A DNA stretch of 64,000 nucleotides from Limisphaerales bacterium (GTDB lineage: Bacteria; Verrucomicrobiota; Verrucomicrobiia; Limisphaerales; AAA164-E04), in NCBI GenBank assembly GCA_024761205.1, contig JAMASS010000005.1:62001-126000 (forward strand). Reading direction: 5' to 3'. The notes beneath the pieces were generated by a model. That model saw only the letters and a program-made list of their open reading frames with translations, had not been told where the DNA came from and searched no databases. Below, one piece after another: positions 58,201-59,919 of the stretch. The position numbers and the translations under genes are program-made. Within the stretch, counting starts at the first letter, position 1, and each line of letters starts with the position of its first letter.

Positions 58201-58632
58201 GGCTCAAGACGCAAGGTTGAAGACTTAATCAAAAAACCAAGGCGCACGAACTCCGAAAATTAAACCCTCAGCCTTACTCCAACCCTCCGCTCTCTTCCAA
58301 AGCGGCTTCAAAGGTCCAAATGGTGAAGGCAGCGTAATTGAAACCTTCTATCTACCTGTTACCGGTTTTCCTGAGATAGGGATGATTTGGTTGGCCCTCA
58401 AAGTGGGGCGTTGAAGCTCCCCGGCAAAAACTCATCAGCAAATAAATACCGTTTTTGTAGCAGCCAACTCAATTCAAGCACCGCTTCAGTCCCAAGGCTT
58501 TGATGCGGGACGCCAACGCCGCTGAGAAAAAAACTGAAAAAAAATCACATTTCCTCCTTGACGGATTCCGTCCGTGAAGGTTTGCTGAAAAACGGTCCCT
58601 CGACAAATAGCCTTGAATGAGCACGGGGGGGA
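58201..58632. other. About 0.43 kb intergenic before the PEP-CTERM gene
   Basis: AT-rich patches and a short GACGGATTCCGTC dyad at about 58559-58571 are present. It must hold the promoter of the PEP-CTERM gene. No gene is recognised. Confidence 0.35.
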
Positions 58633-59517
58633 ATGAATGAAACTTTAACCGTTTATGTTATGCGCAGAGATGATGAAACTTGGAGCCGAATTAACTTCAC
58701 CCGGACATTCGCGGAGAGTACCCCCCCCCCCCCCCGAGTTTATCGCTTGAAGACAGACCGCCCTCGGCGGACAGGCCAAGGGCTTAAACTCACCCTCGCC
58801 GCCCTCCTGACCGCCCTCGCCCTCCAACCTGACGCCGCCGCCGTCGTCGTCGTCGGCAACTTGGACCCGCGATCAAGCGGCGCCACGCTAAGGGGCGACG
58901 GCACTGCGTGGGCCACACAGTTCACCGTCGGCCCGCTTCCCAGCGATGCTTCGCCTGAACACGACAGCTGGGCGCTGGACATGATCGAGTCGCGTTTTCT
59001 GGGCAGCAGCGGCCTAGGTTTCACTCCACACAAGTTGCGGGTCAGTATTCAAAACGATGTCCCCCTAGACGATGGAGACAGCATACCGGCCCCTCTCGAT
59101 AGCCCGCTGGCGATATTGACCGGGCCGGACCCAAATACGCGGGGGGAACATGACTTCATGCCGCCCGAGGGCACTACGGTTTCCCTGCAACCGGGGTCCT
59201 CCTATTGGCTGGTCTATTATTTTCCTGGGGAGGAACAGTATCGGCATTCTTTTTACTCGCCGGCAATAACACTGTCGGATGATGAGGACGCCGGGTCTCT
59301 GCCGGGATGGTCGATCGGCGATGCGAGAAGGGCCGCTGAGGCGTCGGACGACCATGAATGGTTCCTTCCCGGCGGGCTGGCGGTTACCCACGTATTCAGA
59401 TTGAGCGCCACGCCGGTGCCGGAGCCCTCGGAATATGCGCTTTTCTTCGCTTTGGGCTTGGGCGCCTTCGCCCTTTGGCATCGCCGCCGCCAACGAGGGC
59501 AGCGAGCCGCCGCCTAG
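58633..59517 (+). CDS. PEP-CTERM sorting-domain protein with poly-C tract near the 5' end
   Basis: The 294-residue frame starts at ATG 58633, right after a run of seven G. A signal-peptide-like stretch (LTLAALLTALALQPDAAA) lies unusually far in (about residues 53-70). The C-terminus is a PEP-CTERM signal: VPEP at about 262, a membrane helix (YALFFALGLGAFALW) and a basic tail (HRRRQRGQ). The central region (GSSYWLVYYFPGEEQY) resembles other uncharacterised exosortase substrates. The 15-C run at 58721-58735 lies upstream of the signal peptide. With a TTG start just after the run (58747) it would instead lie in the leader. Exosortase itself is not in the window. A strong terminator follows. Confidence 0.82.
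   Translation: MNETLTVYVMRRDDETWSRINFTRTFAESTPPPPRVYRLKTDRPRRTGQGLKLTLAALLTALALQPDAAAVVVVGNLDPRSSGATLRGDGTAWATQFTVGPLPSDASPEHDSWALDMIESRFLGSSGLGFTPHKLRVSIQNDVPLDDGDSIPAPLDSPLAILTGPDPNTRGEHDFMPPEGTTVSLQPGSSYWLVYYFPGEEQYRHSFYSPAITLSDDEDAGSLPGWSIGDARRAAEASDDHEWFLPGGLAVTHVFRLSATPVPEPSEYALFFALGLGAFALWHRRRQRGQRAAA
58721..58735 (+). repeat. Homopolymer of 15 C (candidate phase-variation tract)
   Basis: Fifteen consecutive C bases lie in the first 30 codons of the PEP-CTERM gene. Slippage by one base would put the upstream ATG out of frame with the signal peptide and sorting domain. With 15 C the frame is as annotated (four Pro codons). Confidence 0.9.
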
Positions 59518-59556: not shown

Positions 59557-59590
59557 CGGGGCGGCCTTCAGAAAAGGCCGCCCCGTTTTT
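59557..59590 (+). terminator. Rho-independent terminator of the PEP-CTERM gene
   Basis: CGGGGCGGCCTT (59557-59568) pairs perfectly with AAGGCCGCCCCG (59574-59585) across a 5-base loop, followed by TTTTT (59586-59590). It lies 39 bases after the stop codon and insulates the riboswitch leader downstream. Confidence 0.93.
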
Positions 59591-59665
59591 CTTGCATCGG
59601 GCCTTTTGTCCGGTAGGCTGACCTCGCTCTTTGAAATGTCGCCGACCTCTGGAGTCGGCGGCGAC

Positions 59666-59811
59666 AGCGATTCAATGTCAGGGAACCCCGTGAGATTCGG
59701 GGATGGTTGCGCCACTGTGTTGGGCCACAAATTCTCATAGGCCACTGGAGAATATCCGGGAAGGCGGGAAGGCGGTCATGAGCCCTCAGTCAGGATATCG
59801 GTTGAATTGCT
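59666..59811 (+). ncRNA. Cobalamin (B12) riboswitch
   Basis: The 146-nt element contains the conserved core in order: GGGAACCCCGTGAGATTCGGGG (given here as GGGAACCCC and GTGAGATTCGGGG), TTGCGCCACTGTG, GCCACTGG, GGGAAGGCG and the B12 box region GAGCCCTCAGTCAGGATATCGG. A closing helix P1 is visible: AGCGATTCAA (59666-59675) pairs with TTGAATTGCT (59802-59811) with a single G-U pair. In this RNA family adenosyl- or other cobalamin binding lowers expression of downstream B12-uptake or synthesis genes. A separate GCCGAC/GTCGGC hairpin lies just 5' (59641-59659). The regulated genes start at 60030. Confidence 0.92.
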
Positions 59812-59919
59812 CTCGTCGGAACGGCGCCGCCGTTCACTTCTCCGTCAAAGAGAAGGATGAGGCCAGCCAAGTCTGCCGGTCGCAGCTTGGACCTGTGGAA
59901 AAGTGCTTCGATTTTATCG

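Follow-up and report, generated by a model that had tools for sequence, protein, structure and literature searches.

The poly-C tract at positions 58721-58735 of the window (the whole stretch of 64,000 nucleotides analysed here) lies in one of about 18 dispersed PEP-CTERM paralogues in this genome, which have in common a leader, a poly-C site, a signal peptide and a C-terminal sorting motif. Sequence comparisons make it quite probable that these genes constitute a multigene family of exosortase substrates that is translationally phase-variable by slippage in the poly-C tract and is under diversifying selection. The first-pass annotation had proposed the window gene as a phase-variable candidate; its tract is confirmed, its interpretation is supported in part, and the gene is not a lone one.

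The run was correctly annotated as a 15-C homopolymer: exactly 15 Cs can be counted (GAGTA-C15-GAGTTTATC), the last of which opens an arginine codon (CGA), and in a scan of the whole window every other C or G run measured 7 or less. The number of C runs of at least 15 expected in the window is between 6 × 10−4 (first-order Markov) and 1 × 10−3 (independent bases), and chance is out of the question because the genome holds about 18 copies of the site, whose tracts differ in length. General poly-C richness was considered and rejected, most C9-C10 runs of other contigs (C36 and C57) being in GC-rich DNA with no common flanks.

The gene is on the plus strand, and its position 3′ of the tract and its PEP-CTERM character are as annotated, with a match to TIGR02595 of 21.8 bits (cut-off 16) and one to NF041539 (choice-of-anchor R) of 31.6 bits (cut-off 30); no Pfam match was found for the window protein, and a sequence search of the PDB found no solved relative. 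A promoter-like element at 58558-58586 (TTGACG at 58558-58563, a 17-bp spacer and TTTGCT at 58581-58586) is kept among the paralogues in an alignment of 16 leaders and is recognizable in the tractless relatives C2, C34 and C14, and we infer that it is the promoter. A role for the tract as a promoter spacer was rejected, since this element is far upstream and the tract is within the translated part. Two candidate starts follow the promoter-like element, a G7 run (58625-58631) with an ATG at 58633 (the whole spanning 58625-58635) and an ATGATG (MMKLGAELTSPGHSRRV...) at 58670-58675, the latter being the most likely start from the alignment of tract-bearing and tractless copies. The N-region and signal peptide common to the family (RVYRLKTDRPRRTGQGLKLTLAALLTALALQPDAAA) occupy 58735-58842, and a basic N-region with LKLTLAALLTALALQPDAAA at the N-terminus marks a signal peptide by direct reading. 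The mature region with its choice-of-anchor R domain runs from 58843 to 59415, the exosortase sorting signal VPEPSEYALFFALGLGAFALWHRRRQ from 59416 to 59493, and the TAG stop codon is at 59515-59517. A hairpin read in the sequence at 59558-59591 (GGGGCGGCC...GGCCGCCCC, then a T run) resembles an intrinsic terminator and suggests a one-gene transcript. We note that a cobalamin riboswitch (RF00174, 64.5 bits) is located a little 3′ of the PEP-CTERM gene, at 59656-59820 on the plus strand, and precedes an exported protein, a prepilin-like gene and a BtuF-like frame.

When C runs were scanned in the window's own genome, many of the tracts were found, on reading their flanks, to share flanking sequence of identical type. 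The 161 bp preceding the tract have 20 DNA matches in the genome and the 165 bp following it have 26, partial ones counted. After contig ends had been joined (C87 and C15, which are identical over 127 bp), the tally is about 18 tract-bearing loci, an approximate number since not every left contig end can be assigned to a right one, together with four tractless relatives (C2, C47, C34 and C14). The repeated unit spans approximately 190 bp before the tract to 860 bp after it, and the DNA outside it differs from copy to copy, the window gene and its duplicate of 99 % identity (C75/C80) included; the copies are therefore dispersed. All ten aligned family members match NF041539, and those tract-bearing paralogues that are complete have the motif VPEPSEY...WHRRRQ.

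In eight loci the assembly runs across the tract without a break, with lengths of 15 (the window), 14, 14, 11, 13, 12, 14 and 14. Five lengths (11, 12, 13, 14 and 15) are thus represented among eight loci, although this is a comparison of paralogues in one draft assembly, in which exact lengths are uncertain, and lengths adjoining N gaps were not trusted. The 42-bp segment that separates ATGATGAAA from the tract, by contrast, is constant in length in all eight, and therefore the hypermutable element is probably the tract and not the region. Several contigs stop at a tract, and at many left contig edges (e.g. L099, L098, L085 and L097) the leader is followed by 25-87 Gs where intact copies have A-C(n). 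These edges are likely to reflect dark cycles in the two-colour Illumina sequencing of a poly-G template, and tracts longer than about 15 were therefore probably missed by the assembly. Such contig ends and edges are also what favours a sequencing or assembly artefact, but the eight loci lie in differing flanking DNA and were assembled through C11-C15 at a homologous site, which refutes that explanation for the existence of the tracts and leaves it barely conceivable overall. Poly-C tracts break short-read assemblies, and families of this kind will accordingly be under-counted in metagenomes.

The position of the start codon decides which tract lengths are permissive. ATGATGAAA is found 51 bp 5′ of the tract in all 16 tract copies aligned over the region, and it is kept in the tractless C2 and C47, where it is in frame across the place of the tract into the same signal peptide; in the tractless C34 and C14 the frame opens at an ATG in the corresponding place. 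Two left ends that diverge more, in C29 and at the end of C7, carry TTGATGAAA instead and are shorter by 2 bp, and their ON length would therefore shift. In a frame table covering n = 10-19, the window gene is full length from ATG 58670 at n = 10, 13, 16 and 19, with products of 25-39 residues at other lengths, and from ATG 58633 at n = 12, 15 and 18, so that the product depends on n from either start. The most informative copy is C43 (n = 11), in which a +2 insertion a few codons past the tract restores the ATGATG frame, and that frame only, to give 261 residues. This compensating insertion is the reason to think that translation most likely crosses the tract, and together with the frame table it bears out the annotated expectation that one C more or less would abolish the exported product. 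That a putatively hypermutable tract separates the start codon from the signal peptide is likewise supported by the varying paralogue lengths and constant flanks.

A start at ATG 58670, with the gene ON at n = 1 mod 3, is more likely than one at ATG 58633, and on that start the assembled window copy, with its 15 Cs, would be OFF. From ATGATG, C78 (n = 13) gives a full-length product, and it and C43 are the only contiguous copies ON from there at the assembled length, most of the others being OFF. The ATG at 58633 had been put forward with its G-rich ribosome site, and both exist as described, with a frame that runs through C15 to the PEP-CTERM motif; indeed, the ATGATG has only a weak Shine-Dalgarno sequence (GCAGAG), while ATG 58633 is behind the G7 run, and C45w (n = 15, 294 residues) and C89a (n = 12, 283 residues) are full length from it. 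A second start there (or at ATG 58660), used in addition and in the other frame, would leave genes ON at n = 0 and 1 mod 3, perhaps at differing strengths, and OFF only at n = 2. We regard this as unlikely, since only about half of the copies have the frame of ATG 58633 open as far as the tract, with an early stop or no ATG elsewhere, the codon is missing from the tractless relatives, and it is unable to rescue C43. Translation from a point after the tract, such as TTG 58747, which would make the tract neutral or an element acting at the transcript level, is very unlikely. This TTG yields a compact and plausible signal peptide (MKTDRPRRTGQGLKLTLAALL), and the N-region ahead of the hydrophobic core is unusually long (about 40 residues) if translation begins at ATGATG, but nothing resembling a Shine-Dalgarno sequence lies directly 5′ of the TTG and the upstream in-frame ATG is kept in tractless relatives. 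Moreover, the C43 insertion is 3′ of the TTG and would end a product begun there after about 25 residues, although the rest of the C43 frame is open and has an intact PEP-CTERM motif at its end.

The second line of evidence concerns the pattern of substitution along the genes. Nucleotide identity among the paralogues averages 94 % both in the 36 codons of the N-terminal block and in the PEP-CTERM block, with dN/dS of about 0.3-0.4, whereas the mature part has a mean identity of 64 % and pN exceeds pS (0.367 versus 0.322). Of the three codon positions in the mature part, the third is the best conserved (0.694, versus 0.616 and 0.640). Among close pairs of copies, which are not mutually independent, dN/dS is 2.75 for C15-C61 (bootstrap P = 0.0015), 2.35 for C89b-C53 (0.005), 2.09 for C33-C61 (0.0025), 1.93 for C33-C15 (0.0095), 1.60 for C53-C76 (0.015) and 1.51 for C89b-C5 (0.027). 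More distant pairs have non-significant values of 1.15-1.25, the exception being C89a-C15 (2.00), and in one distant pair the ratio is under 1; the counting method leaves transition bias out, which should make these ratios conservative. The conserved ends and a mature part in which dN exceeds dS point to a selective advantage of diversity in the portion that is displayed. Synonymous divergence is itself uneven, with dS of about 0.11 in the N- and C-terminal blocks and 0.42 in the mature part, a difference that suggests homogenization of the family ends by gene conversion.

These same homogenized end blocks would also fit a decaying repeat family, in which the tract expanded a single time, duplication and gene conversion distributed the copies, and the majority are pseudogenes frozen OFF. 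The prevalence of copies out of frame from ATGATG as assembled and an internal stop in the tractless C47 are in keeping with such decay, which we nevertheless hold to be highly improbable: the post-tract frames are open and the PEP-CTERM motif is intact in the examined tract copies, those truncated at a contig end left aside, and relaxed decay should give dN/dS near 1 and premature stops, not the values of 2-2.75 seen here with open frames.

In the switch that we propose, the family members would be dispersed and separately transcribed, each behind a promoter-like leader of its own. Translation would begin at ATGATG and read the tract as a run of prolines, reaching the signal peptide only at n = 1 mod 3 (13, 16 and so on) and otherwise stopping after 25-39 residues. 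Slipped-strand mispairing in replication would alter n, each gene would flip ON or OFF independently, and a population would become a mosaic of displayed proteins. Slippage in living cells, display at the surface and a selecting agent, be it phage, predator, or recognition of a host or partner, would all be parts of such a system. To a broader reading we give somewhat better than even credence, namely that the system of this environmental bacterium is antigen-like, with nearly the whole PEP-CTERM repertoire under about 18 independent poly-C switches, its exposed parts positively selected and its ends gene-converted. The genome encodes exosortase (PF09721) twice, at C78:88495-89232 (E-value, 3.6 × 10−42) and C18:331-1068 (4.9 × 10−40), and has 23 PEP-CTERM matches at E ≤ 0.01. 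Ten of the 11 best of these belong to the poly-C family, tractless members included, and much of the exosortase load of the organism is therefore likely to consist of this family. A MutS gene is present, so hypermutability is not guaranteed; MutS is also found in other phase-variable species.

The Opa genes of Neisseria have their repeat in the 5′ (signal-peptide) coding part. In the gonococcus they occupy about 11-12 dispersed loci, each with its own repeat and switching independently (PMC5953494), and the poly-C family is alike in its dispersed loci, individual repeats and variable exposed parts. Opa proteins are however beta-barrel outer membrane adhesins of a pathogen and switch by CTTCT pentamers, whereas the present family has a mononucleotide C tract in the N-region ahead of the signal peptide core, and exosortase sorting. 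Within the PVC superphylum, the PmpG proteins of Chlamydia are an expanded paralogous exported family with polyC tracts of 13-24, polyG tracts of 8-19 and frameshifts at the tract, although Pmp hotspots are reported mostly far inside genes (PMC6740158). The two systems share the superphylum, the paralogue expansion and C or G tracts of varying length at conserved sites, but the Pmps are autotransporters of obligate intracellular pathogens and involve neither PEP-CTERM nor exosortase. In a Pfam search the window protein showed no autotransporter or Opa barrel domain, and no homology to either system. Closer in taxonomy, Akkermansia muciniphila also belongs to the Verrucomicrobia and combines homopolymer tracts with a PEP-CTERM set; its genome paper describes an exosortase, 21 PEP-CTERM proteins and 17 genes with homopolymers longer than 8 bp, and proposes phase variation, with slippage in capsule genes (PMC3048395). 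The tract genes that it names are these capsule genes, with (G)8 and (C)10, and not exosortase substrates, and a tract-bearing PEP-CTERM family is not reported in the text covered. The sorting signal itself is that of the PEP-CTERM/EpsH exosortase system, with its C-terminal VPEPSEY-TM-RRR arrangement (PMC1569441), and the genome has the corresponding PF09721 exosortase. In the literature covered, which leaves out most subscription journals, no report of a slipping PEP-CTERM family or of phase variation of exosortase substrates was found, and the Akkermansia genome paper alone brings PEP-CTERM or exosortase together with phase-variable tracts.

The SdhA protein of the window is closest to those of Verrucomicrobiales/Limisphaerales MAGs (75-78 %). 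The three other species of the genus lack the leader DNA, which was not found as a family in 97 genomes either. Weak protein relatives of the family occur in genomes G002, G013, G016 and G023, where the loci examined have no C or G tract of at least 9, and no such run was found within 1.5 kb of 30 PEP-CTERM loci of relatives; the system is thus, on these comparisons, recent and local. A search of GTDB contigs with the family gave no match, its own genome having perhaps been left out of the database. The C11+ tracts of relatives were considered as members of the same family and rejected, those among the matches listed being in unrelated contexts. One same-genus genome in a single contig has a C23 near the end of a 508-residue frame (L227, G001:C1:3517902 region) and five further C11+ tracts, none of its C11+ tracts being in the poly-C PEP-CTERM family.

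Slipping-tract multigene surface families are known mostly from host-associated pathogens, and here the route would be the exosortase/PEP-CTERM pathway; if the proposal is true, surface variation in that pathway is combinatorial in the way familiar from pathogens. A family that uses this pathway and has a clear excess of nonsynonymous substitutions, in an uncultured bacterium related to the Verrucomicrobiales, offers a function-relevant way into the PEP-CTERM proteins, most of which have no known role, and allows a test of whether bacteria that live free vary their surface to counter phages, predators or neighbours.

Other tracts were also noted in the genome. At G000:C11:25021 (L041, tract at 1502-1516) there is a C15 in a prepilin leader, MKAFNANVTNHRPAPAAVYV-P(n), for which n = 1 mod 3 alone keeps the frame, so that it is OFF as assembled; this prepilin is a candidate for a second kind of phase-variable exported protein in the genome. 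Another prepilin (L088, G000:C78:46620, C on the minus strand) has a coding-strand G16 and is in frame at 16 (MRMTKTRRIDRRRGGGGGFTLIELL), and a putative lipoprotein (L050, G000:C18:65908) has a coding-strand G10 at its lipobox (LLLTLITAGGGCATITNKS). A two-copy repeat, AAAAAAGGCTTG-C(10/14)-ATAGTAGGTTAGCG, is found near 3003 of L090 (at the end of C78) and near 3002 of L091 (C79), both copies being near contig ends; its tract may separate a -35-like TTGCCC from the -10, as a possible promoter-spacing switch. Finally, G000:C28:9991-13845 (L052-L054) contains an array of a repeated unit, GTCGTGAATGAACTAAATGCCGAAAGGCAATGAAGAC, with short variable segments, several of which have a C9.
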